A DNA stretch of 64,000 bases, taken from NCBI RefSeq assembly GCF_902506325.1, contig NZ_LR732328.1, forward strand, positions 310,001 through 374,000, read 5' to 3'. The position numbers and the translations under genes were made by a program. This document shows positions 50,252 to 64,000 of this stretch, one piece after another. Numbering within the stretch: position 1 is the stretch's first letter; the number at the start of each line of letters is the position of its first letter. Below the pieces are notes generated by a model that made no database searches, was not told the origin of the DNA, and was given only the letters and a program-made list of their open reading frames with translations. Source of the DNA: Limnobacter sp. 130. GTDB taxonomy: Bacteria > Pseudomonadota > Gammaproteobacteria > Burkholderiales > Burkholderiaceae_B.

Positions 50252-51091
50252 TCAAACAGGTAAATTGCCGGTGATTGCATCAAGCGGCAACGTGTCGGCG
50301 GGGTTGGGCGCTGAGCCAATTGGCAGCGATCCCAAGGCGTCGAACAAAGGGTCTGAAATCACTGATAGCGGGGTGTCACCCAAGGCATCGGCCAGTGGAT
50401 CCAGTACGGCATCCAGCGGCGTGCCGGTCGTGCCTTCGTCAACTGGGGCTTCTGGCTCGTCTGGGTTGTCTACAGGTTCTTCTGGTTCTTCTGGCTCTTC
50501 CGGGTTCTCAGGATTCTCCGGATTTTCATTTTCGTCTGGGTTGTCGGGGTTATCTACCGGTTCTGTGGTTTCATCACCGTTGTCCACGCGCACATCGGTG
50601 AATGCAGAACCTTCTGCATTGGTGTCGTCTCCGGAGGATGCTGCTAGCGCTGCCACACCTACGCCACCACCAATGGCGGTGGCAATGCCGCTGACACTGC
50701 CTGCTGTGCCTGCTGATAGAAGACCTGCCCCAACCAGGCCACTGAAGCCAGTGCCGGCGTCGGCTAGCAAGACTGCACCGTCTGTGCCTTCGCTGATTGC
50801 GAAGAGCTCGACGCCTTCGGTCAAAGAGGTTACTTCAATTACTCCGCCTTGCGCAGCGGAGTTGGTGGCAATTTGAGCGGCTGATTCTGGGGCCAGGGTA
50901 ACCAGTGAGTCGGCTTGTCCTGTGCCTTGTCCCGGTAATTCAATATCAACAGCTACCAAGTCTTTGTTTTGAAGAACGTCGCCAGCAAGAATTGCATCGC
51001 CTTGGCGCAAGGTGAGTTGCTCGCCTTGGCGTTGAACCAAAAGCTTGTCTGTCTTGGAGGCAATGGTGCCAATTTTTGGGGCCGTGCTCAT
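50252..51091 (-). CDS. Acidic BapA-prefix-like repeat protein (small paralogue)
   Basis: The 279-residue protein has no signal peptide. Residues about 1-110 resemble the N-terminal prefix/retention-type domain of BapA/LapA-like adhesins (RQGEQLTLRQGDAILAGDVL; SLTEGVELFAISEGTDGAVL). A Gly/Ala-rich hydrophobic stretch follows at about 117-150 ([16 protein letters not shown]), then a Pro/Glu/Asp-rich low-complexity linker with PENPE-type repeats (about 175-215). A C-terminal unit, [18 protein letters not shown], matches the repeat of the larger upstream paralogue. No RTX repeats or type I secretion genes are visible. Function is unknown; a surface or secreted role is only suggested. Confidence 0.75.
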   Translation of the reverse strand: MSTAPKIGTIASKTDKLLVQRQGEQLTLRQGDAILAGDVLQNKDLVAVDIELPGQGTGQADSLVTLAPESAAQIATNSAAQGGVIEVTSLTEGVELFAISEGTDGAVLLADAGTGFSGLVGAGLLSAGTAGSVSGIATAIGGGVGVAALAASSGDDTNAEGSAFTDVRVDNGDETTEPVDNPDNPDENENPENPENPEEPEEPEEPVDNPDEPEAPVDEGTTGTPLDAVLDPLADALGDTPLSVISDPLFDALGSLPIGSAPNPADTLPLDAITGNLPV

Positions 51092-51208: not shown

Positions 51209-53506
51209 TTAACCGAGTCCGCCTGTCAGTGGGCTGATTGCGTCCTGAAGCGGGGCTGTCACAGTGCTGATGGGTGTGCCATCTGCCGCGCCAAGCAAGT
51301 CGTCTACTGGAGAAGTGTCGCCACCACCCATCACTGCTTCAGCCAATGGGTCGACAACAGCGTCCAGCGGGGTTCCGGTGGTGCCACCTGTGTCGTCACC
51401 GCCACCTGCCACTGCTTCGGCCAATGGATCGAGAACAACATCCAGCGGAGTTCCGGTGGTGCCACCTGTGTCGTCACCGCCACCTGCCACTGCATCGGCC
51501 AATGGGTCGAGAACAACATCCAGCGGAGTTCCGGTGGTGCCGCCTGTGTCATCACCGCCACCTGCCACTGCATCGGCCAATGGATCGAGAACAACATCCA
51601 GCGGAGTTCCGGTGGTGCCGCCTGTGTCATCACCGCCACCTGCCACTGCATCGGCCAATGGATCGAGAACAACATCCAGCGGAGTTCCGGTGGTGCCGCC
51701 TGTGTCACCGCCGCCTGTGTCGTCACCACCGCCGGACAATGCATCACTGATTGGGTCGGTCACTGCTTCAAGAGGGGTATTCGCACCGACATCATCAATC
51801 ACGCCAGCCACGTTTTCAGCAAACACGGCGGGGTCCGAGTTGTCCATCAAGGCATCGGTTAGTGGTGACAATGGTGTTTCTGGTGTTTCACCGCCGCCGT
51901 CCAATGCACCTGTAAGTGGATCGAGTACAACATCCAGAGGTGTACCAGTTGTACCGCCTTCCTCGGGAGGAGGTTCTTCTGTATCGGGGGTGCTCTCGCC
52001 GCCCAGCAATGTGCCGACTGTCGTGATCAGTTCCTCGCCAGGGCCGGCCATTTCCGCATTGTCGATAAACGCATCACCTACATCAGAGATGCCAGATGAC
52101 AAGGCCGACACGACCATGTCAGACACGGCTGATGTTGCTGGATCAAGAGGTGCAAGCGCACTGTCTTCATTGGTCAAGTCCGTGAGGCCTTCACCAGCTT
52201 CGTCCAGGGTGCCGCTCAAGCCTGTCGAGCCACCTGATTCTTCATCGGTGCCAACGATTGGTGCGAGGATTCCCGAGGTCAGTGGGCTCAGTTGGCTTTC
52301 GTCAGCCGCCAGCGTGTCGCCGACACTGCTTAAGCCTGAGGCAACGCCGTCGGTGCCGTCCTCTTCGCTGTAGCCGAGTGTCTGAGCCAATGGGTCAACC
52401 ACTGGGTCAAGCGGAGTTTCTTCCGCACCTTCAGCCAAGCCTTGTGAAAGATTGCTGACTACGCCGACCAAGCCTTCCTGGTCATTGGTGTAGCCCTCTT
52501 GTGGCTGACCTATTGTTTCAGCCAGGACTGTTGACAAGCCGGAGGGGTCTTGCTCGGAGAAGCTTGCGATCCCGTCAGAAACCGTAGTCAGCCCATCGGC
52601 CAGTGCGCCTGTCGCAGCGGTCAATGGAGCCAAGGGGGTTTCTTCCAAACTTTGGTTCAAGGAATCAATACCGCCGATCAGGCCTGATGTGTCGCCGTCT
52701 GCATCGCTGTCGGAATCGGAATCGGAATCTGAATCGGAGTCGCTGTCGGAGTCAGAATCGCTGTCGGAGTCAGAGTCGCTGTCGGAGTCAGAATCGCTGT
52801 CAGAATCAGAATCGCTGTCGGAGTCAGAATCGCTGTCGGAGTCAGAATCGCTGTCGGAGTCAGAGTCGCTGTCGGAGTCAGAATCGCTGTCGGAGTCAGA
52901 ATCGCTGTCGGAGTCAGAATCGCTGTCGGAGTCAGAATCGCTGTCGGAGTCGGAATCGCTGTCGGAGTCAGAGTCGCTGTCAGAGTCGCTGTCAGAGTCG
53001 GAATCGCTGTCGTCGCTGGGGTCGACGGTGGTGGTTGTGTCATCGCCATCATCACTTAAGGCCAGCGCGCCAAGGGCTGCGCCACCAATTGCTGCGCCCA
53101 CGCCTGCGCCTGCACTGCCGCCTGCCAACAAACCAGCACCAACCAGGCCGGACATGGTTCCTTCGTACGGAGTCAGAATGGCGGAACTCACATCGTTGTC
53201 GATGTCATACAGTTCAACGCCTTCGCTAAGAGCAACTACTTCAGTACGTGTAGCGCCATCTGCAACTGTAGAGGCAATTTGCTCAAGCTTCGCAGATGCA
53301 TTCGGTGCCAATTGCAACAGGGTGTCGCCGTGTCCGGCTGACACTGCTGGCATCAAGACTTCAGCAGTTTGTGTTCCAGTGTTGGTGACCACATCGTTCC
53401 ACTTCAGTGCGTCGCCTTGGCTGAGGTTTACAATTTGGCCACCACGTTCAACTTGCAGGCCACCTGCTGTTTTAATAATGCCCACATTGGGATTTGCGTT
53501 TTCCAT
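51209..53506 (-). CDS. Large acidic Ser-Asp repeat protein with BapA-prefix-like N-terminus
   Basis: 765-residue, strongly acidic protein. Residues about 1-110 form the prefix/retention-like domain shared with the 279-residue neighbour ([39 protein letters not shown]). A Gly/Ala-rich hydrophobic stretch spans about 118-150. Residues about 165-268 are a pure Ser-Asp tract of about 50 dipeptides. A long middle region has degenerate repeats, and residues about 592-722 contain five 26-residue repeats ([16 protein letters not shown]). The ATG at 53506 ([10 protein letters not shown]) has AAGGAA 9 bases upstream and is preferred over a GTG at 53572. No signal peptide, RTX motif or LPXTG anchor is seen. 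Probable surface or matrix protein (inference). Confidence 0.78.
51341..51730 (-). repeat. Five tandem 78-bp coding repeats
   Basis: Five head-to-tail copies of a 78-bp unit, with starts at 51341, 51419, 51497, 51575 and 51653. They encode a 26-residue repeat rich in Gly, Asp, Thr and Pro ([19 protein letters not shown] then AGGGDDT). Copies are nearly identical, implying recent duplication. Diverged copies lie farther into the gene near 51890-51960, and one lies in the paralogue near 50370-50440. Confidence 0.9.
52702..53013 (-). repeat. Ser-Asp dipeptide tract with 18-bp periodicity
   Basis: About 310 bp encoding roughly 50 Ser-Asp dipeptides. On the plus strand the unit TCGCTGTCGGAGTCAGAA recurs every 18 bp with small variants, so DNA periodicity is three dipeptides. 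Such tracts vary in length by slippage or recombination. They act as flexible stalks in gram-positive surface proteins; in this context the role is inferred. Confidence 0.92.
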
Positions 53507-54012
53507 GATTTTAAGTTCCTTGGCGCTAGAGAGTTTGTTCGGCAAGTTCACTGCTATAAGCGTTTTACTCACAGCAGTTTCAATTGGATTCAGGAAAGCG
53601 AAAATATCCGCTGGAATATATTTGCTTCTCGGGCAAGGGTTGGTTTAATTGTTAAATTTGGTTGTAGTTGTTTTGAATGAATTGTTTTTGGGTGTTGATA
53701 ATTGAGGATTTTTGTGCCACCTGGGCTTTGTGAAATTCACGCCGTTTTTTATTTTAAAATCTCAGGAAACGGCATCTTGTTGCGTGTAATTCTGTAAGTG
53801 AAGAGGAAGGCTGGGGACTCATTTGGGTGGGGGGTTCTTAGAATTATTCCGATAACAAATTTCTGATTTAAATTGTTGGCTGAGCAATTTATTCAGGACC
53901 AGCGTAAATTTCTGCATTTTTATTTGATATTTCAGTCTGACCATTTCTTGATGCCTTTTTGGGGTGTCAAAGTATCAATTCGGGAAGCGTTGACCAATCT
54001 GTCCAGGGAAGC
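53507..54012. other. AT-rich divergent intergenic region before tamA
   Basis: A 506-bp gap between the divergent starts of the Ser-Asp repeat protein and tamA, clearly richer in A+T than its surroundings (for example TTTTTTATTTTAAAATC at 53744-53760). No convincing gene, RNA or repeat was seen. A weak candidate for a tamA promoter is TTGATG (53948-53953) with TATCAA (53973-53978), spacer 19. Signals for the minus-strand gene could not be placed. Confidence 0.45.
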
Positions 54013-55809
54013 ATGAGGAAGTTTTTGAGTAAGCACAAATCTCCGGTTGTGCGGTGGCTTTGTATCGCATTCAGTTCAATGGTTCTGCAGCTTGGCACCG
54101 TGCAGGCGCAGGATATAGTCACGGAGTTTGCGCCCCCGGTGGTTAATTATCAGGTTCCGGATGAATTCAAGGATTTGATTGAGCGGTCTACCCGACAAAT
54201 TCGATCGACTGCGCAGGTCAATGACAACGGGGACGCTTGGCAATTATTCCGGAGATTGAGGCCTGCTATTCGCGACGCGTTGGGTACCCAGGGGTATTTC
54301 TCCCCATCGATTCAACGAATGGTTGACGACACGATTCCAGAGGACGAAGCGCCTCCGTTAAACATCACAATTGCACCTGGGGTGCAGAGCAAAGTGATCT
54401 CTGTTGACATCGAGTTTGATGGAGAGATCAACAAAGATGAATTTACTGCAAGGCGTGAGCGCCTTAAGACCTTGTGGCTGCTGGGGGTTAATCAGCCCTT
54501 TAATCAATCAGATTGGAGCGCTAGCAAAGACAACCTTCTACGTGATCTGCTGGCCAAAGATTTCGCGGCCGCTACTCTTTCTGAAAGTTTGGCCAATGTG
54601 GATCCGGAAAACAACACGGTTGCCTTGAGCGTTGTGTATGACAGTGGGCCAGTGTTCACTTTCGGAGAGCTGCAAATTGAAGGATTGACCAAGTATCCCA
54701 AGGATCTGGTTTCGCGTTACAACACGATTCGTCCAGGTGACCGGTATGAACAGGAGCGTTTGCTGCGGCTATTGTCGGATCTTCAAGGCACCACTTACTT
54801 TTCGGCTGTGGATGTGAAAATTGATGCGGATGATCGTCAGCCGCGCAACGTTCCCATTGACATCACTGTGATGGAGAGCGACAGCAAGCGTCTCGGGTTT
54901 GGTGCAGGTTACAGCTCCAATACTGGATTTAGAACTGAAGCGACTTATCAATATAACAATCTGTTTGATCGGGCTTATTCACTGGTGACTGGCGTTCGAT
55001 TGGAGCAAAAACGTCAATCTGCCTATGCAGACCTGTTTCTTCCGCCGTCAAAGCGCGGGATAACCGATTCTGTGGGTGTGGCGTTTGACCACCAGGAAAT
55101 ATCGAATCTGGAGGTTGACCGTTCCTCGGTTGGCGCTATCCGGGAATTCAACAAAGGCAACAATGAGTATCGGCTTGGCTTGAATTTTCAGCTTGAGGAG
55201 CGAAGGGCGTTGGGTGTGAATTTTGGACAAACGCAAGCCCTCGTTGCAAGTTCTTCGTGGCTGCGAAACGCGGTAGATAGCCGTTTGAATCCCACCGAGG
55301 GCTATATTGTTTTTAGTCAATTGGCGGTAGCCTCTGAACAGTTTGCTTCTGATCAGGATTTTATTCGCTTGTACTCGCGGGCACAAAAATTCTGGTCGCC
55401 ATCCCGGGAGAATCTGTTCTCTGCAAGGTTCGAGGCCGGTACGGTGGTGGCCAGCGCCCGGCGCGATATTCCCCAAGACTATTTGTTTCGCGCGGGCGGC
55501 ACCAATAGCCTGCGTGGATTCGATTTTCTTGATCTGGGTGTAATTGATCAAGGAATTTTGGTGGGTGGTCGACGTTTGATGATTGGCAGCCTGGAGTACA
55601 CACGCTGGTTTGATGGTGGACCACTTGGTGCGGCGGTTTTCACCGATGTGGGCGATGTATCAGACAACTGGAGCGACTTTGATCCCAAACCGGCCATTGG
55701 CGTTGGCGTTCGCTACAAAACACCGGCAGGTCCGATTGCTTTTGATGTGGCCAAAGCAGCCGATCAGGATAATCTGAGAATACATTTTGCGCTGGGGGTG
55801 GCATTTTGA
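54013..55809 (+). CDS. tamA: Translocation and assembly module outer-membrane protein TamA
   Basis: BamA/Omp85-family protein that, with TamB, supports insertion of some outer-membrane proteins and envelope lipid transport. The 598-residue precursor has a signal peptide ending VQAQ (about 1-33), POTRA domains (about 60-280; FTFGELQIEGLTKYPKDLVSRY) and a C-terminal 16-strand barrel from about 290 (GFGAGYSSNTGFRTEATYQYNN; FRAGGTNSLRGFDFLDLG, the RGF/Y motif). It ends in Phe. The ATG at 54013 has AGGGAA upstream. tamB begins inside its last codon. Confidence 0.93.
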   Translation: MRKFLSKHKSPVVRWLCIAFSSMVLQLGTVQAQDIVTEFAPPVVNYQVPDEFKDLIERSTRQIRSTAQVNDNGDAWQLFRRLRPAIRDALGTQGYFSPSIQRMVDDTIPEDEAPPLNITIAPGVQSKVISVDIEFDGEINKDEFTARRERLKTLWLLGVNQPFNQSDWSASKDNLLRDLLAKDFAAATLSESLANVDPENNTVALSVVYDSGPVFTFGELQIEGLTKYPKDLVSRYNTIRPGDRYEQERLLRLLSDLQGTTYFSAVDVKIDADDRQPRNVPIDITVMESDSKRLGFGAGYSSNTGFRTEATYQYNNLFDRAYSLVTGVRLEQKRQSAYADLFLPPSKRGITDSVGVAFDHQEISNLEVDRSSVGAIREFNKGNNEYRLGLNFQLEERRALGVNFGQTQALVASSSWLRNAVDSRLNPTEGYIVFSQLAVASEQFASDQDFIRLYSRAQKFWSPSRENLFSARFEAGTVVASARRDIPQDYLFRAGGTNSLRGFDFLDLGVIDQGILVGGRRLMIGSLEYTRWFDGGPLGAAVFTDVGDVSDNWSDFDPKPAIGVGVRYKTPAGPIAFDVAKAADQDNLRIHFALGVAF

Positions 55810-58800
55810 AGCGCGGGGTTCTTGCATTATTTCTATTGTTGGTTCTGGTCACTGCTGCGGTTTCTGCAGGAATTGTCTGGCTGATTCATTCCGAAAAAGG
55901 TTTGCAATTTGCAGCTGGAACAGCGCAAAACTGGATCAATGCCAGCGATGATCCCAAGCTGGAGTTTGGTGAAATCCGCGGTACTTTGTGGACAGGGTTC
56001 AATATTGAGTCTGTTCAATGGCAGCAGAATGAAACAAGGCTGGAGGCTGAGCAAGTTCAGCTGCGTGTTGACTGGTCTGAGTTGTGGTATCGGGTTATTC
56101 GAATCAACCACCTGTCGGCAAAGGTGGTGCGTGTAGACGCGCCGCCTTCCGACGATGACGAACCGTTCATGCTTCCTGACAAAATTGCTGTGCCAGTCGA
56201 TATTGAACTGAATCAATTTGCCGTGGAGCAGTTGCTGATCAATGGGGAGGTGCTCAGGCAACTGAATGCCACTGCAGCGGTCAAGTCGGGTCAGTTGCAG
56301 GTTGGCAATTTCTCAATCAATGTACAGGACACGCAGATTGCCTCCGCATTCAATCTGATCCTGGAGAAGCCCTATCAAATTGACGGTTCAGTGAATGCGC
56401 AGCGCGGTTTTGACGATTTGCTGCTAGATGCGCATGTTGCTGCCAAGGGTTCTCTTGAGCGCCTTGAGTTGGCGATTGATGCCAAGGGAGAAAACCCTGA
56501 GAGGGCCGATCAAAGCCAAAGTGTGCAGGCTCAGGCAGTACTCACGCCGTTTCGTTCAACGCCGGTTGAGACCGTTCAATTAGACGCCCGAAATTTCAAT
56601 CCCGCACATTGGCTCAATGGTGCCCCCCGTGCCGCACTTACCATTGTTGCGAATGTTCAGCCGAACGAGGATTTTTCCGAGACTGTCGGCGATATTTCTG
56701 TTCGCAATGCGCAGCCTGCCACTTTACAAGCAGGTGGTGTACCCATCTCTGTCATGCAAACCCGGTTCAAATTGACTTTGAGTGAGCAACTTCCCCAGCA
56801 GTTGAATGTTTGGGTTGATGAGCTTCTTTTTGCAGATGGAAAACGCCAGGCCGGGCAAGCCAAAGCGGTTCTTCAGTGGCGCGCCCCCGAGCGTGTCGGT
56901 GACGATGTTGCCAGTATGGATCCTTTGGCCGGAGACATGAACTTTGAACTCAACGCGAACAATGTCGATGCGTCGGTGTTTGAACAATTGCCTCAACGGC
57001 TGGCGCTGAATGCAAGCATTCAAGGCGCAAAAACGGGTCAACGCTTGCAGGTGACCAAGCTTGTACTGCGTGATCGTGGGGCGGAACTTCGGGGTCAGGT
57101 TTCAGTGGACTTGTCCGGGAAGATGCCTGCCGATATTCAACTCGATCTTTCAAAAATCAACCCAGCCAATTACATCCCGAACGCCAGTCCTTTCATGCAG
57201 GGCGATTTGAATGGCAAGGCAGCTTTTCGTGGCGTTTTGGCCCAGGGCGGCAGCACCATTGATCCGTTTGGTGAACTCAATCTGGATTTGACCAATTCCC
57301 GATTGGCCAACGCACCGCTAACCTTGATTGCCAAGGCCAAAGGTGGCGCTTCGCGTTTGACTGAGTTGTTTCTTGATCTTGATGTTGTTGGCAATACAGT
57401 ACGGGCGACTGGAAGTTATGGAACTCAGGCGGACTTTGTTGACCTGGATGTGAATCTGGATGAACTGCCGCGTTTGGGTAAGCTGATTCGCATGGATATT
57501 TCAGGTGTTGCGCGTTTGCAGGGCAGGGTGCGCGGGCTCGACGGTGATTTCTCGGGTGAAGGCAATATCGATGTACGGCAATTGAAGTTGGGCAGCACGC
57601 TGCAAATCGAAACAGTGTCTGGGCAGTTCAACCTTGGATCAGCTCCGAATGCTGCCTGGGTCGGCGATATTGTGGCGAGCAAGATCAAGGTGCCGGGTGA
57701 AACTGCCAATACCTTGAATGAGTTGACACTGACTCTTCGCGGTGTTCGTAGTCGCCACGAATTGAAAGGCGTGTTTTCCAGTGGTTTGCAGCCTTTTAGT
57801 CGCCAGCGTCAACTGAAAGGTGAGTTTGCGTTCAACGGCGGAGTTGGCGAGTTGAAAGTTCCAAAGTCAACTTCGGGCTGGAAGGGCCAATTGACAAAAA
57901 TGAAAGTGGAGGGCATGTGGTTGCCTGCCCGCAGCCTGGCTTTGCAAGCCCCGGCGCCGCTCACGCTCGCCCCGGGATATGTCGAGTTGCTTGATTTGGT
58001 GATTAAGGGTGAGGATACCTCTGTCATCAACAACAGAATTCTTCGCATTGCAAACCGGGAAGTGCGGGCCGAAGGCGAAATGCCGCAGTTCTCATTTCCT
58101 CGGATGTCCCCGATCTTCCGCAAACAATTGACTGTGGAACCGCGGAATCTGGTTGCAAGTGTGCGCTGGAATTATCTGGCCAATCCAAACAAGGTGGATG
58201 GTCATGTGGACATCCAACATGTGTCTGGCGGTTTGCAAATACTGGAAGACTCGCAAGTGGATGTAGACATTCGCACCATGATCGCAAGTCTGGATTTTAA
58301 TCGTGAGGCTGCAAGTATCGATGTCAATATTCTGGCGGATGATTTTGGTGCGGTGTCTGCCAACCTCCGGCTGCCGGTTCAACAAAATCCGCAGACCAAG
58401 GCATGGGCCATTGCTGGAGATGAACCCATGCAGGGCTCAGTAGCCGCGGGTTTTACTGAACTGAATTGGCTTGGCCCCATGATCAGTGGCGGTGTGCGAA
58501 CCAGTGGCACAGGCCAGATTGCCATGGCCATTGCTGGTACTGCGAACAACCCGGATGTTCAAGGGCGTTTGTTCGCAATGGATCTTGATGTTTTTCAGCT
58601 TGATCAAGGCGTTCGCCTTGAGGACGGCAATGTGGTTGTTGATTTCACCACGGACAAGGCCAGTATCGATACCTTTGAGTTCACTGTATACAATCGCGTA
58701 CCACCTCGCCGTTACATTGAACAATTGGGGCCACTGATTCAGGGCAATGGAAAAGTGAAGGCGGAGGGGGTCTGGAATTTGACCGGATTGAACGGTGAAA

Positions 58801-59852
58801 TAAGGCTGTCGATGGACAGGGTGCCTTTGCTGCAACGCCCGGACCGATGGATGATGGTGAACTCGAATGTGACTGTTCAGCAGCCTGTCGTCGACGGACA
58901 ACCCTTGAAAATTCGGGGTGAAATCGACACCTTGGGTGCTTATTTTGAAATGCCTGAAAGTGGTCCTCAAACTCTGGGCGATGACGTGTTTATCCAGGGT
59001 CGCAGTGAGTTGGCCGGACAAGGACTTCCAATTGATTTGCAACTTCGGGCAAACCTGGGTGATCGGTTCTACATTAATGCAGAAGGATTGAGAAGCAGGC
59101 TTGAGGGAGGATTGCGTTTGGTCATGCTGGAAGGTGTTGGTGGAAGTGGCCAGCGTCGATCGGGCAGACGTTTGAGCGCGACCGGGACCATTCAAACGGT
59201 CGGTGGAACCTACCGTGCCTATGGACAAGACCTTGCCATTGATCGAGGCGTTGTTAATTTCCAGGGGCCACTTGATAACCCGGGCTTGAATGTGCGAGCA
59301 GTGCGCAAAGGTGTGGCGGTTGAAGCGGGTGTTGAAGTCACCGGCACTGCGCAGCGACCCACTGTCAGGCTGGTGAGTGAACCAGCAGTGCCTGATTCGG
59401 AAAAACTGTCATGGATGATCCTTGGTCGCGGTAGCGGCTCTGCGGACCGTGACTCAACTTTGCTACTGACAGCGGCTGCTGCGATTTTCGGAGATGATGA
59501 CGAAAGCACGACCCGTAAAATTGCAAAATCCATTGGCATTGATGATCTTAGCTTAAGCACGGGTTCGCTGACCGCAGCAGATTCCCGCGCGGTGGGCAGC
59601 AAGGTGGCAATTGCACCGGGTGCAGATGCATCTGCCAATGTGATTGGATCTGATGACCCTTTGTTGTCGCAGCGGATTGTGTCGTTGGGCAAACGGTTCA
59701 GCGATCGCGTGTACTTGAGTTTTGATCAGTCGGTCACCACCGCAGCCAGTATCATCAAATTGAACTATCAGTATTCCCGACGGTTGAGTTTTATTGCCCG
59801 GGCAGGTGCAGACAATGCAGTGGATGCTCTTTATCAATTCTCTTTTGACTGA
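55806..59852 (+). CDS. tamB: Translocation and assembly module protein TamB
   Basis: AsmA-like giant of 1348 residues that spans the periplasm from an N-terminal inner-membrane helix (about 5-22, LALFLLLVLVTAAVSAGIVWL) to TamA. The long beta-rich middle is followed by the conserved C-terminal DUF490/TamB domain from about 1050 (VGGTYRAYGQDLAIDRGVVNF; LSWMILGRGSG; YLSFDQSV). It starts with TTG overlapping the tamA stop (TTGA), giving tight coupling. Confidence 0.93.
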   Translation: MKRGVLALFLLLVLVTAAVSAGIVWLIHSEKGLQFAAGTAQNWINASDDPKLEFGEIRGTLWTGFNIESVQWQQNETRLEAEQVQLRVDWSELWYRVIRINHLSAKVVRVDAPPSDDDEPFMLPDKIAVPVDIELNQFAVEQLLINGEVLRQLNATAAVKSGQLQVGNFSINVQDTQIASAFNLILEKPYQIDGSVNAQRGFDDLLLDAHVAAKGSLERLELAIDAKGENPERADQSQSVQAQAVLTPFRSTPVETVQLDARNFNPAHWLNGAPRAALTIVANVQPNEDFSETVGDISVRNAQPATLQAGGVPISVMQTRFKLTLSEQLPQQLNVWVDELLFADGKRQAGQAKAVLQWRAPERVGDDVASMDPLAGDMNFELNANNVDASVFEQLPQRLALNASIQGAKTGQRLQVTKLVLRDRGAELRGQVSVDLSGKMPADIQLDLSKINPANYIPNASPFMQGDLNGKAAFRGVLAQGGSTIDPFGELNLDLTNSRLANAPLTLIAKAKGGASRLTELFLDLDVVGNTVRATGSYGTQADFVDLDVNLDELPRLGKLIRMDISGVARLQGRVRGLDGDFSGEGNIDVRQLKLGSTLQIETVSGQFNLGSAPNAAWVGDIVASKIKVPGETANTLNELTLTLRGVRSRHELKGVFSSGLQPFSRQRQLKGEFAFNGGVGELKVPKSTSGWKGQLTKMKVEGMWLPARSLALQAPAPLTLAPGYVELLDLVIKGEDTSVINNRILRIANREVRAEGEMPQFSFPRMSPIFRKQLTVEPRNLVASVRWNYLANPNKVDGHVDIQHVSGGLQILEDSQVDVDIRTMIASLDFNREAASIDVNILADDFGAVSANLRLPVQQNPQTKAWAIAGDEPMQGSVAAGFTELNWLGPMISGGVRTSGTGQIAMAIAGTANNPDVQGRLFAMDLDVFQLDQGVRLEDGNVVVDFTTDKASIDTFEFTVYNRVPPRRYIEQLGPLIQGNGKVKAEGVWNLTGLNGEIRLSMDRVPLLQRPDRWMMVNSNVTVQQPVVDGQPLKIRGEIDTLGAYFEMPESGPQTLGDDVFIQGRSELAGQGLPIDLQLRANLGDRFYINAEGLRSRLEGGLRLVMLEGVGGSGQRRSGRRLSATGTIQTVGGTYRAYGQDLAIDRGVVNFQGPLDNPGLNVRAVRKGVAVEAGVEVTGTAQRPTVRLVSEPAVPDSEKLSWMILGRGSGSADRDSTLLLTAAAAIFGDDDESTTRKIAKSIGIDDLSLSTGSLTAADSRAVGSKVAIAPGADASANVIGSDDPLLSQRIVSLGKRFSDRVYLSFDQSVTTAASIIKLNYQYSRRLSFIARAGADNAVDALYQFSFD

Positions 59853-59864
59853 CAGCAAAACAAT

Positions 59865-62800
59865 ATGATCAATTCTGGCAGGCTTGAAAAACTCGGCAAA
59901 CATTTCTCAGGGTTGAATCCTGTCGAACACAACGATACCTGTGTACTGATGCTGTCGCATTCCAATGGGCAGGCGCGTGCGACTGTCGAAGTTTTTTCCA
60001 GTCAATCGTTTGAAGCCAGCTGGAGTGCATTGCATGCCCATGTCACCGCGTCGTTTCGCAAAACATCGGTCGACGTTGAACATGTGCGTGTGGATTGGGT
60101 GTGCGAAATTCAGAAAGTGACATGGGCCGAGTTGAAGACACTGCTTTCAACAACAAAACGCAATTACTTCAGTCTTGGCATTGCACTGGATCCGCAATTC
60201 AAGCATTCCTTTTTGTGGGGCGAGCTCAACGGCAATGCGATGTTGTACGGTGGCTCCGAGGAAGAGTTTGCCAAACTCCATGTCGGAAATTTTGAGAAGT
60301 ATGCGCGCAAAAAGTATGGCAAGTCGTTTGTATTGAATCACGCGGGCGAGCAACCGGTGTACTTGTTTTCCACCCAAGGTGCTTACGTGGGCACTGATGG
60401 GGTGGTGCACACCCTGGAGCCCGCTGGCGTGGCGGTTGGACGGCGTAAGTTGCCCGACCTGGAGGCGGAGTCGTGCGGGCAGCTGGTATTCAATGCCAGT
60501 GAATTTTTGGCGCGACAGGTCAAAGACAGCGGTTCATTTGTGTATGGCATTTTTCCTTGTTTCAACAAGGAAATTCCAACGTACAACACCCTGCGCCATG
60601 CCAGTTCCACCTATGCAATGATTGAAGCCTGGGAACTGACACAAAGTTCATTTCTGAAGTCTGCAATTGATCGGTCACTGCATTGTTTGACGACTGAACT
60701 GATTAAGCGCGTGACGCTGAGCGGCGGAATTCAAGCCGCGTTTCTGGTTGATACCGGCAATGAGATCAAGTTGGGTGGCAATGCCGTATGCATACTGGCC
60801 CTGGCCAAATACACGGAACTGACAGGCGAAACCCGTTACATTGAGTTGATGGAACAACTGGCCCAAGGAATTGTGGCCATGCTCAACCCTACCACCCGTC
60901 AATTTGTGCATGTGCTGAATTATCCCGATCTTTCCGTGAAGGAACAGTTCCGGATAATTTACTACGATGGCGAGGCCGCATTCGCCTTGATGCGTTTGTA
61001 CAAAATTACGCGTCGCCCCGTGTGGCTTCAGGCGGTGGAACTGGCCTTTGAATATTTCATTGAAGCGCGCCATTGGAAAGCGAACGACCACTGGATGAGT
61101 TATTGCGTCAATGAGCTCACCTTGTATCGCCCCAAACGCGTGTATTTCGAGTTTGGCATTCGCAATTTTTCGAGTCATCTGGATTTTGTATTAAACCGCA
61201 TCACCACTTTCCCTACATTGCTGGAGTTGATGATGGCGGCCCAACAAATGCTCTCGCGTTTGCAGGGCATGCCAGAGTTTGCTGATTTGTATGCGCAAGT
61301 GGATGTCGAGAAGTTTTACCGTGCCATGCACTGGCGTGCGAACTACTTGTTAACCGGGTATTTCTGGCCAGAATGGGCCATGTACTTTGCAAAACCGGAC
61401 ACCCTGAATGGTGCCTTTTTCATTCGCCACCATGCTTACCGCGTTCGCATTGATGATGTTGAACATTACGTGTCGGGTTTGGTGGCTTACCGGAAGTTTT
61501 TGCTCAACAGCCCCGACAAAACACCGATAGGTGTTTTGGATCAAGCCGCTGCATCGGCCACTGGCAGTACGCAGGCTGACGGCCCGATTCTGGCCTGGGC
61601 GGGTGATGTGAACCTGGGACGAAGAATGCACTACAGGGCCCATACGTTGGGCTTTGATAAAGTGTTGTCACAAGTGCCGGTTTTAAAGGCCGCAGATTTA
61701 ACCGTTGTGAATCTCGAGTGCGTAGTCTCGAATCAGGGCGAGCAAGGTTTCGACAAGGGCGAAAGTGGTCCTTATTATTATCGGGCACGACCTGAAATGT
61801 TGAATATTCTGGTGCAAGGCGGTGTAGATGTATTGTGCACTGCGAACAACCATTCCGGTGACTACGGGCACGATGCACTGCTGGATCAATTGCATTGGGC
61901 GCAGGTGGCGAGTTTGGGTTTTGTGGGCACAGGCCACAATAGTCAATCTGCATTCAAACCCCTGATTCGTCAGCTTGGCGATGTGCGCATAGCACTGTTC
62001 AATTTCGACCTCACTCAGAAACGTTTTGCCGCAACAGGCACCCAGCCGGGAACGGCTTACCTGGATCCAATCGCCCCTGAAAGCTGGAAAGCGCAGGTAG
62101 AGCATTGCTTTCAGCGTGCGCATGAGCAGGCCCATCTGGTTGTTGTGGCTTTGCATTGGGGCAACAACTGGAGCACACAGCCTGACCCGCGCACACGCAC
62201 CTGTGCACATGCCTTAATTGAATGCGGCGCAGACTTGTTGCTGGGTGCATCGGCCCACGTGCTGCATGGCGTTGAAGTGCATCGTGGCGTGCCCATTGTT
62301 TACGATGCGGGAGATTTCCTGTTTGACTCCATTCGAAAGTGCGTCACCAGCGGCGTTTTTCTCTGTGAACTGGGCATGCATGGCGTTAGGTCTGTTGTTT
62401 ATGTACCGGTGGGCTCTGAGTTTGGCTACACCCGCCAGTATCACGGGCATGAGGCTGTGTCCGCTTGCGAAGACTTTGAGCGCAAATGCCAGGCCCTTGG
62501 AACTCTGGTTCAGAACCAGGGAGAGCGGGTGCTGATCGTTTTGCCGCAAAAAGAACAAGTGCCTGGCGGCGTGCGAACGTTGCACGATAAATTACCCGCT
62601 CCAGCCGATCCCAAAATGATCGGGTCTGTGCCATCTCTCCTGGACACCTGTTGTGTGCCCAGCGTACCAACGGATGCCCTGATCAACCTCAATACTGAAC
62701 AATGTCAGTGGGGACCGGTGCGCTTAATGGGCATTCGGATTCATCCACATGAATTAAACCAGCGTGGGATGTTGTGGGTTGAAACCTTTTGGTCTGCGGA

Positions 62801-64000
62801 CAGCGTCTTGACCAAAGACGCCCGGTTGAATATTCGCGCCCAGAACAGTTGGGACCAACAATTGCCCAACTGGGGGCAGGGGATGGAGCACGACCCTTGT
62901 GACTGGATGGCTCCCACTTCCCGCTGGGAGCAAGGCAAAATTTACCGGGACTTGGCAGGCCTTCGCCCACCGGTCAGCAAAGCGGTGAAGAACGGTTTGC
63001 TCGAAGTAAAAATCCAATGGTTGGCCAGCGATGAATTGGGCAATCGCGAACTGGTGTTGAGTCAACAAGCTGTGCGCGTGCTGTTGAAGTATCCCGACAA
63101 GCCTTGCCAGCTCAATGAACCCCTGAAGCAGGTTTCGGTGTGGCTTCTGAACCAGGACATGGGTTTTCAGCGCACAGGTGTCGAAAATGCAGCATTGCTT
63201 CGCAATGAGGTTTTCCATGGACAGTTGGGTGTTTCGACCACGCTGTTAACCTGTCGCTACAATCCACGCCTTCATGAATCTGCCCAACAGTTGATGTCTG
63301 CGGGTGCCTTGCCAAAGCGTCAAATTGTCGAATCTGTTTATGATTTTCTTCAGCAGGCAGACACAGTGAATGCGGTGTTGAACACTGGCGAACAGGTGCT
63401 GAAGAATTCACAGTTTCGCGTGGAGTTTGTTGCAAATACACATGATGTTCGCATCAACGATACGCGCGGCGATCGAGTGATGTATTTGGCGCGCAACCCC
63501 GCCAACAAAGCGCTGAATTACATCAACCACTTTTGTGGTGGTGTGAAGTTTCGCAAAGACAGGTATGACTCCCGAGGTTTCCTCAGTTGTATTCAGTACC
63601 TGTGCAAAAGCACCGGGCTTGCGACGCATGAGCATTACCTGCGGCCCAATGGCAGTTTGGCCATTGCGAAATACCATCAATTGGTTGACGGTAAAATGGT
63701 GTTGCAGAACATCCGCTTGCATGGCCCGGGTGGTGATTTGCTGGCATCGTTGCCCAATGAACAGGCTTTGATTGCCCATGCCCTTTGCGCCATGCTTGAA
63801 AGGCGTGGTGGAAAGCATGTGTTGATCGTGGACAAGAACCGGCTTTTGTACAAACCTGCCCTGATGGCGCAGCAACGCATTCATCAGCAGATGCCAGGGC
63901 AAGTGGCCGTGGTGCCGGTAGTGCATGCCGTCCACACCTCGGGCTACAAAAATATTGCTCATGGTCCGACTAACTCCAATTTTCGGGATATCTTGCATGA
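59865..64000 (+). CDS. Very large CapA-domain / glycosyltransferase fusion protein, 3'-truncated by window edge
   Basis: The frame from ATG 59865 stays open for 1378 codons to the window end, starting 12 bp after tamB. Residues about 1-270 were not recognised. About 275-500 look like an alpha/alpha-toroid (KLGGNAVCILALAKYTELTG; YYDGEAAFALMRLYKIT). About 575-840 are a CapA (PGA_cap) metallophosphatase-fold domain: WAGDVNLGRRM, VVNLECVVS, CTANNHSGDYG, ALHWGNNWS, AHVLHGVEVHRGVP, YDAGDFLFD. About 840-1150 are a beta-rich linker. From about 1160 the sequence matches the N-terminal part of TagE/GtfA-like glycosyltransferases (YDSRGFLSCIQYL; YLRPNGSLAIAKYH; VHAVHTSGYKN). No signal peptide or transmembrane helix is seen. 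A role in an acidic or teichoic-like surface polymer is inference. Confidence 0.82.
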   Translation, partial: MINSGRLEKLGKHFSGLNPVEHNDTCVLMLSHSNGQARATVEVFSSQSFEASWSALHAHVTASFRKTSVDVEHVRVDWVCEIQKVTWAELKTLLSTTKRNYFSLGIALDPQFKHSFLWGELNGNAMLYGGSEEEFAKLHVGNFEKYARKKYGKSFVLNHAGEQPVYLFSTQGAYVGTDGVVHTLEPAGVAVGRRKLPDLEAESCGQLVFNASEFLARQVKDSGSFVYGIFPCFNKEIPTYNTLRHASSTYAMIEAWELTQSSFLKSAIDRSLHCLTTELIKRVTLSGGIQAAFLVDTGNEIKLGGNAVCILALAKYTELTGETRYIELMEQLAQGIVAMLNPTTRQFVHVLNYPDLSVKEQFRIIYYDGEAAFALMRLYKITRRPVWLQAVELAFEYFIEARHWKANDHWMSYCVNELTLYRPKRVYFEFGIRNFSSHLDFVLNRITTFPTLLELMMAAQQMLSRLQGMPEFADLYAQVDVEKFYRAMHWRANYLLTGYFWPEWAMYFAKPDTLNGAFFIRHHAYRVRIDDVEHYVSGLVAYRKFLLNSPDKTPIGVLDQAAASATGSTQADGPILAWAGDVNLGRRMHYRAHTLGFDKVLSQVPVLKAADLTVVNLECVVSNQGEQGFDKGESGPYYYRARPEMLNILVQGGVDVLCTANNHSGDYGHDALLDQLHWAQVASLGFVGTGHNSQSAFKPLIRQLGDVRIALFNFDLTQKRFAATGTQPGTAYLDPIAPESWKAQVEHCFQRAHEQAHLVVVALHWGNNWSTQPDPRTRTCAHALIECGADLLLGASAHVLHGVEVHRGVPIVYDAGDFLFDSIRKCVTSGVFLCELGMHGVRSVVYVPVGSEFGYTRQYHGHEAVSACEDFERKCQALGTLVQNQGERVLIVLPQKEQVPGGVRTLHDKLPAPADPKMIGSVPSLLDTCCVPSVPTDALINLNTEQCQWGPVRLMGIRIHPHELNQRGMLWVETFWSADSVLTKDARLNIRAQNSWDQQLPNWGQGMEHDPCDWMAPTSRWEQGKIYRDLAGLRPPVSKAVKNGLLEVKIQWLASDELGNRELVLSQQAVRVLLKYPDKPCQLNEPLKQVSVWLLNQDMGFQRTGVENAALLRNEVFHGQLGVSTTLLTCRYNPRLHESAQQLMSAGALPKRQIVESVYDFLQQADTVNAVLNTGEQVLKNSQFRVEFVANTHDVRINDTRGDRVMYLARNPANKALNYINHFCGGVKFRKDRYDSRGFLSCIQYLCKSTGLATHEHYLRPNGSLAIAKYHQLVDGKMVLQNIRLHGPGGDLLASLPNEQALIAHALCAMLERRGGKHVLIVDKNRLLYKPALMAQQRIHQQMPGQVAVVPVVHAVHTSGYKNIAHGPTNSNFRDILH

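Follow-up and report, generated by a model that had tools for sequence, protein, structure and literature searches.

Within a 64,000-nucleotide stretch of the genome of Limnobacter sp. 130 (contig NZ_LR732328.1, positions 310,001 to 374,000 of the forward strand; hereafter, the window), we found that the gene directly behind tamB encodes a fusion of four modules: a toroid-containing domain, referred to here as TOR; a CapA-type domain; a β-sandwich, referred to as MID; and a glycosyltransferase (GT) resembling SdgB. From gene comparisons, this protein of 1615 amino acids is probably a cytosolic enzyme for O-glycosylation of the Ser-Asp repeat adhesin encoded at 51209–53572, and it would act before the adhesin is exported. 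TOR apparently represents a widespread and undescribed modular family, whose partner enzyme mostly corresponds to the type of repeat.

The fusion frame was confirmed as a real gene with the genome contig. The ATG at 59865 opens a frame that fills the remaining 1378 codons of the window and continues past its end; the full gene occupies L002:866–5713, with no internal stop and with a stop codon at the position equivalent to 64712 of the window, 712 bases outside it. The initial annotation had described the frame up to position 64000, in the order toroid, CapA, and GT and without a signal peptide, and had named a frameshift or assembly error as its possible flaw. The frame is open throughout in the genome, profiles and structure models support the order of modules on one polypeptide, and inspection by eye likewise suggested no signal peptide. 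Given that TOR-GT fusions without CapA, also free of internal stops, lie behind tamB at seven other loci of the genus (L004–L008, L010, and L032), we saw no sign of a frameshift.

The GT module points to the nature of the acceptor. Pfam Glycos_transf_1 matched residues 1424–1585 (E = 1.9e-27), and the NCBIfam model for SdgB matched residues 1096–1602 (E = 7.3e-65) with 219.5 bits, which is below the model cut-off of 800, compared with 195.3 bits for SdgA and 72.5 bits for GtfA. In a search of PDB sequences, residues 1095–1603 aligned with residues 6–493, the whole length, of SdgB (structures 7ec1 and 7ec3; E = 1.5e-55, 191 bits), including the insert domain that binds the Ser-Asp (SD) peptide in SdgB, whereas TarM structures scored 78.5 bits and covered the COOH-terminal half (E of about 1e-21). 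SdgB and SdgA have been described to glycosylate Ser in SD repeats, with the SD peptide bound in the DUF1975 insert of SdgB and with R329 and K334 serving the donor (PMC8561734). With numbering carried over by hand, R329 and K334 correspond to R1435 and K1440 of the fusion, the loop at 406–411 corresponds to 1516–1521, and the SD-binding residues S97, D99, and Y111 correspond to T1192 (a conservative replacement), D1194, and Y1207. The complete GT expected after residue 1150 is thus present, but its assignment to the TagE/GtfA type gave way: the closest curated relatives in sequence are the protein O-glycosyltransferases SdgB and SdgA, not GtfA or TarM, and the acceptor is therefore likely a protein rather than a wall polymer. 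An SdgB-like GT (E up to 1e-25) was found in only two of 369 genomes of the class, the genome analysed here and, as a partial match, G794, and is therefore rare in that spread.

These matches bear on the proposal of the initial annotation that the fusion is an undescribed enzyme of surface polymer synthesis, in which a CapA capsule factor is combined with a TagE- or TarM-type GT to make a surface polysaccharide or teichoic-like polymer. The family names PGA_cap and GT4, together with the TarM match to half of the module, agree with such a role, but SdgB matched the GT better and over its whole length, and Asp-alternating tracts were the commonest shared neighbor that we found. Neither capsule-type genes nor CapB or CapC partners were noticed by eye among the open reading frames of L002 and of the end of the window, where no profile search was made. 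We therefore regard a polymer product as quite unlikely, while a role at the cell surface, which the same annotation had suggested, is likely.

To the NH2-terminal side of the GT, the TOR domain resembles known enzymes in fold only. No Pfam family matched residues 1–548 above its cut-off, no family for TOR was among the 25 of 28 NCBIfam matches listed, and PADLOC gave no match for it. An AlphaFold2 model based on 70 sequences (predicted local distance difference test score, pLDDT, 93.1; predicted template modelling score 0.91) shows an (α/α)6 toroid and a separate NH2-terminal part, in agreement with the toroid-like region proposed initially. The top Foldseek matches were GH76 enzymes and AGE-type epimerases, with about 10% identity and TM scores by target of 0.35–0.68 among the matches listed; the likeness to the AGE superfamily is thus one of fold, without a match to a sequence family. 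The toroid alignment contains many invariant R, H, D, and E residues. A function in anti-phage defence, considered because of a weak GT4-conflict match, was dropped in light of the PADLOC result.

The CapA-type domain recognized initially was substantiated by a PGA_cap match at residues 576–821 (E = 3e-58; 197.7 bits, with a gathering score of 27). A predicted model of CapA and MID (17 sequences; pLDDT of 81.7) had as its best fold match the peptide epimerase MslH (E = 6.5e-24, 18% identity), although the NCBIfam model for MslH, which has a cut-off of 700 bits, gave only 60.8. Weak matches of NPC2 and the Wzt carbohydrate-binding domain (E of about 3e-4 to 1e-3) covered a shorter part, probably MID. 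Among eight metal or catalytic residues of MslH (D11, E44, N87, H88, D91, H259, H261, and H295), six have aligned equivalents in the fusion: E618, N662, H663, D666, H764, and H798. The alignment stops short of D581, which was assigned as the equivalent of D11 from its motif position only.

The proposed substrate, which the initial annotation had not connected with the fusion, lies just beyond tamAB from the fusion gene, on the minus strand. It matched NCBIfam models for SdrC, SdrD, and ClfA only along its repeat (residues 178–294). Serine in the Ser-Asp tract is encoded by TCC (18), AGC (17), TCT (15), and TCA (1), and aspartate by GAC and GAT; this mixture of synonymous codons argues for selection at the protein level rather than for a plain DNA repeat.

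The pairing of TOR with such tracts extends to other bacteria. A search of genome contigs with the toroid alignment gave at least 591 relatives, and the 80 best loci among these were read; further TOR loci were obtained from 60 genome relatives, from 398 genomes of the phylum, from genomes of the order (247) and family (246) surrounding an enterobacterium, and from plasmid and Escherichia coli records. After removal of eight duplicates (L020, L023, L024, L027, L028, L030, L137, and L139), 131 TOR loci were counted, with short search loci (L001–L014, L112–L134, L156–L185, and L224–L251) left out; TOR is identical in L015 and L253 and in L058 and L059, and nearly so in L021 and L032. A tract was defined as an open frame scoring at least 10 alternating Asp residues, and a Mur-ligase locus as one with the ligase fused or its gene within 1.5 kb; hidden Markov models for GT and Mur ligase were built from the locus set itself. 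Tracts were present in 85 of the 131 loci (70 of the 97 loci of at least 19 kb), compared with none of 20 control regions of 20 kb, which were hand-picked at round coordinates in 10 TOR-bearing genomes rather than drawn. In all of them Asp alternates with another residue, which is Ala, Ser, or, in one case, Gly. Ser dominated the tract at 17 of the 20 GT loci, Ala at one, and two had no tract; at the 82 Mur-ligase loci, the corresponding numbers were 51 with Ala, three with Ser, and 28 without a tract (50 and three if L040, which has a fused methyltransferase and was counted by its neighboring ligase gene, is excluded), and at the other TOR loci 11 with Ala, one with Ser, one with Gly, and 16 without. 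The same pairing was apparent within the genus (eight GT-Ser, two Mur-Ala, and two Mur loci without a tract) and in 21 loci of Enterobacteriaceae (nine GT-Ser, one GT-Ala, two GT without a tract, six Mur-Ala, and three other-Ala). A component of a type I secretion system (>150 bits) was found at 51 of the 97 loci of at least 19 kb and at 41 of the 70 among these with a tract.

In a comparison of Limnobacter genomes, the type of tract varied with the module at the tamAB locus. The NH2-terminal domain of the adhesin is present in 14 of 16 genomes, with three to seven copies in each; the two others, G002 and G011, are incomplete and matched neither adhesin nor TOR. Each of the 10 TOR-bearing genomes encodes one or more such proteins with a tract, whereas in the four without TOR (G003, G004, G014, and G015) no tract was present in the eight loci read, two per genome of three to five matches. 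At the tamAB locus, GT genomes carry Ser-Asp tracts. In L. parvus (G007), tamB is followed by a TOR-Mur ligase and the adhesin contains (DA)130; in G003, a DUF599-like gene comes directly after tamB and the adhesin lacks a tract. G006 contains both pairs, GT with 57 Ser-Asp units and Mur ligase with 40 Asp-Ala units. In G009 and G010, a TOR-VanY-Mur ligase is encoded elsewhere in the genome, and Asp-Ala tracts occur in adhesins at other places. The association might reflect shared location only, with TOR and adhesin as accessory genes of the same biofilm islands, given that many TOR loci are on plasmid records and that the test that takes kinship into account is underpowered; the switch of tract type with module at one syntenic locus (G007) and within one genome (G006), and the absence of tracts where the adhesin is present and TOR is not, make this explanation unlikely.

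The initial annotation had also suggested that the product of the fusion depends on TamAB. The 12-bp gap between the tamB stop codon at 59852 and the ATG suggests that the two genes probably share a transcript in this genus, and the fusion might make or modify something that TamAB handles. Adjacency of tamB and TOR was nevertheless confined to the genus (nine of 131 loci, a count that distant TamB proteins of <300 bits would escape), and tamAB remains near the adhesin in the TOR-less genomes G003, G004, and G014. We therefore rejected TamAB as a general link, and a function tied to it is very unlikely.

The window gene itself may be a chimera. Over the segment that spans the adhesin and tamAB, the DNA is 84% identical to that of L. 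alexandrii (G012). The long homology breaks off at 61507, where TOR ends, and picks up again at 65424, ahead of the DUF599 gene, with only a 163-base piece of GT (77%) in between. TOR is 91% and GT 54% identical to those of G012, and 76% and 65% identical, respectively, to those of G001. CapA was found in the TOR frame, where alone it was counted, together with Mur ligase at 17 loci, with no recognized module at three, and with GT only in the window gene among the 20 GT loci. The initial impression of an unusual fusion was right. A small metalloprotease-like gene (L002:5659–6417, equivalent to 64658–65416 of the window) overlaps the end of the fusion gene; the one relative that it has in the set (E = 2.3e-36) is found in Acinetobacter baumannii L018, next to TOR and an unfused CapA gene. 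From the end of the G012 homology at TOR, the single CapA-GT case, and this relative, CapA, MID, GT, and the protease may be an exchanged cassette.

In the mechanism that we propose, TOR would recognize, or first modify, the Asp-alternating tract, and the SdgB-like GT would then add a sugar to its serines, most likely N-acetylglucosamine (GlcNAc) from UDP-GlcNAc if the analogy with SdgB applies. The CapA module may be a metal-dependent accessory for peptide modification, possibly an epimerase like MslH, kept from a fusion of the CapA-Mur ligase type, and the modified adhesin would be exported, perhaps by a type I system. Serine is a fitting acceptor for a GT, and a carboxylate for a Mur or ATP-grasp ligase; a GT would thus be expected only with tracts that contain Ser, and a ligase with any tract.

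Several observations weigh against this mechanism. SdgB alone has been described to glycosylate SD peptide (PMC8561734), so that this reaction does not, as a rule, require TOR. The position of MslH H261 is occupied by Gly, leaving the MslH residue set incomplete. No tract was seen in the DNA examined at 46 of the 131 TOR loci, including A. baumannii L018, which has TOR, CapA, and the same metalloprotease as lies downstream of the fusion gene. L254, a TOR-GT locus with a mostly Asp-Ala tract (six Ser, 75 Ala), is a clear exception to the expected need of GT for Ser; the tract of the TOR-GT locus L255 is mixed (37 Ser, 23 Ala), and Ser-rich tracts accompany Mur ligase at L050, L142, and, weakly, L104 (15 Ser, 13 Ala, part masked). 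Fisher's test of module against partner (p = 1.4e-12) takes no account of kinship, and two lineages supply most of the GT loci. In a TOR tree of 72 loci with four module changes and seven partner changes, four independent pairs were available, three as predicted, none opposite, and one with no difference (sign test, p = 0.25); this phylogeny-aware test agrees in direction but is underpowered. The genome's own operon of ABC, HlyD, and OEP genes for type I secretion, at L232, is unlinked to the fusion locus. TIGR03375, which had been tried as a marker of such systems, was too general, matching all 16 genus genomes and all 14 controls; above its cut-off it matched one genus genome and no control, and it was used only to locate this operon.

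A less probable but possible alternative is that TOR is the core enzyme, acting on the Asp side chains or backbone of the tract, with GT acting on the TOR product and the link to Ser being secondary. Alternating Asp is common to tracts with Ala, Ser, and Gly, TOR with no recognized module in its frame lies beside Asp-Ala (131 units, Listeria) and Asp-Gly (87 units, L148) tracts, and the invariant residues of TOR would suit an enzyme. SdgB-type GTs have, in contrast, been described to act on Ser (PMC8561734), and 17 of the 18 GT loci with a tract are dominated by Ser. We continue to favor glycosylation of serine by the GT module.

The features of the locus are listed in Table 1. Scans for promoters and terminators performed no better than on shuffled sequence, and only a tRNA matched Rfam at the gathering threshold.

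Table 1 Features of the fusion gene and its surroundings (window coordinates)
Feature	Position	Strand	Basis
TOR-CapA-MID-GT gene, first 1378 of 1615 codons	59865..64000	+	ORF analysis, genome contig
TOR (codons 1-548): NH2-terminal α/β part, ~1-200; predicted (α/α)6 toroid, ~201-548	59865..61508	+	Profiles, model, Foldseek
CapA/PGA_cap domain, residues 576-821; calcineurin-like, closest in fold to the MslH peptide epimerase	61590..62327	+	Pfam, Foldseek
MID, predicted β-sandwich (831-1085); accompanies CapA in other TOR fusions	62355..63119	+	Model, comparison
Start of SdgB-like GT (1091-1605; ends at window-equivalent 64679)	63135..64000	+	NCBIfam, PDB search
Proposed substrate, 787-amino-acid repeat protein; NH2-terminal domain conserved in genus	51209..53572	-	ORF, genus comparison
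Residues 188-294 of the repeat protein, a Ser-Asp tract with 54 Asp, of which 51 have Ser as partner; synonymous codons mixed	52691..53011	-	Tract scan
Paralogue of adhesin NH2-terminal domain, without tract	50252..51091	-	Genus comparison
tamA (Omp85 and POTRA); neighbor outside proposed mechanism	53959..55809	+	Pfam
tamB (TamB), 12 bp upstream of fusion gene	55806..59852	+	Pfam

The wider survey showed how variable the partners of TOR are. At E up to 0.001, TOR was present in 17 of the 398 phylum genomes (14, including that analysed here, below 1e-100), and at E up to 1e-60 in four of the 247 order genomes and 21 of the 246 family genomes around the enterobacterium. TOR was fused with GT4, Mur ligase, CapA-MID-Mur ligase, VanY-Mur ligase, methyltransferase, GT2, or an ATP-grasp ligase, or stood alone. 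The VanY-type fusions (L029 and L038) belong to two genomes of the Limnobacter group with tracts elsewhere in the genome, VanY being just below the cut-off in one of the two. Fusions with a YheC/D-type ATP-grasp ligase were seen at L140, L141, and L144, loci at which no tract was seen in the DNA examined, and a TOR-Mur-ligase protein (L147:5997–11003) has a Fic-like stretch, below the cut-off, in between. Stand-alone TOR occurs on four staphylococcal plasmids, with a Mur-ligase gene directly behind it in three, and in Listeria adjoins an LPXTG protein with 131 Asp-Ala units. Stand-alone TOR proteins of Listeria and staphylococci (L152:9929–11587, L150:9932–11548, and L153:11932–13548) are annotated as poly(glycerol-phosphate) α-glucosyltransferases; our GT model failed to match them, and this annotation is thus possibly wrong. 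The Asp-Gly tract, with Gly as a third partner residue, is at L148:5784–8954.

Among 5426 complete E. coli genomes, a TOR-GT gene is borne on plasmids of three, each of which came from a frog host; in the one that was read (ET210, L154), the gene adjoins genes for TolC, ABC, and HlyD as well as 529 Ser-Asp units. The arrangement recurs in a Klebsiella record, in which the Ser-Asp units number 496 and the annotation breaks up the ABC gene. At two enterobacterial Asp-Ala loci, a divergent gene (L256:4655–8014 and L259:5195–8449) encodes Mur ligase, a Peptidase_S11-like domain (below the cut-off in L259), and CapA; together with LapD and a BTLCP protease near the former, this gene hints at chemistry of D-amino-acid peptides at these loci.

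We consider evenly balanced the broader proposition that TOR defines an unnamed system of protein modification, in which a toroid for Asp-alternating adhesin tracts would be combined with interchangeable enzymes: Mur ligase with or without a D,D-carboxypeptidase-like domain, ATP-grasp ligase, CapA, GT4, GT2, or methyltransferase. In its Asp-Ala branch, the stem-peptide chemistry of peptidoglycan would load amino acids or short D-peptides onto Asp side chains, yielding branched, cyanophycin-like protein fibers from ribosomally made adhesins, and the window gene would have arisen when the ligase of a CapA-ligase fusion was swapped for a GT that matches a Ser-Asp substrate. In a search of the open-access literature, none of the papers listed connected Mur ligase, or a toroid of this kind, with such adhesins. 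If the proposition is correct, glycosylation of Ser-Asp repeats, described in staphylococci, would also take place in Gram-negative bacteria, where it would form one branch of a broader family, and a testable function would be available for hundreds of genes (at least 591 relatives), some of which are now annotated as glucosyltransferase or Mur ligase.

The closest known system is that of SdgA and SdgB, which add GlcNAc to the Ser-Asp repeats of staphylococcal adhesins. Such GlcNAc is described as shielding SD-repeat adhesins from cathepsin G, and sugars put on Pls by GtfC and GtfD as raising biofilm formation (PMC7029136). The Limnobacter locus shares with these systems a GT homologous over its whole length, by alignment the donor and SD-binding positions, and a Ser-Asp protein nearby; it differs in its Gram-negative host, in the fusion of GT behind TOR and CapA, in a score well below the SdgB cut-off, and in the absence from the adhesin, judged by eye, of an LPXTG anchor. 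The CapA module resembles MslH in fold and at most catalytic positions but differs in its low identity and the Gly at H261. TOR has the (α/α)6 toroid in common with AGE-type sugar epimerases, GH76, and GH88, and differs from them in its additional NH2-terminal part and its sequence. With regard to the Asp-Ala branch, BapA of Paracoccus denitrificans, with 891 Asp-Ala repeats, is encoded beside type I secretion genes and is described as required for biofilm formation, and the main text of that report contains neither of the terms "Mur ligase" and "glycosyl" (PMC5588039). BapA resembles the Limnobacter protein as a predicted type I-secreted adhesin with an Asp-alternating tract, but its repeat is Asp-Ala rather than Ser-Asp; the pairing described here predicts covalent modification of such long Asp-Ala tracts as well as the class of enzyme responsible. 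The Mur-like module of cyanophycin synthetase has a Mur-ligase fold and loads amino acids onto the Asp side chains of a polymer. This module offers an analogy for the TOR-Mur-ligase relatives, with the difference that its substrate is a non-ribosomal polymer whereas theirs would be a ribosomally made adhesin.

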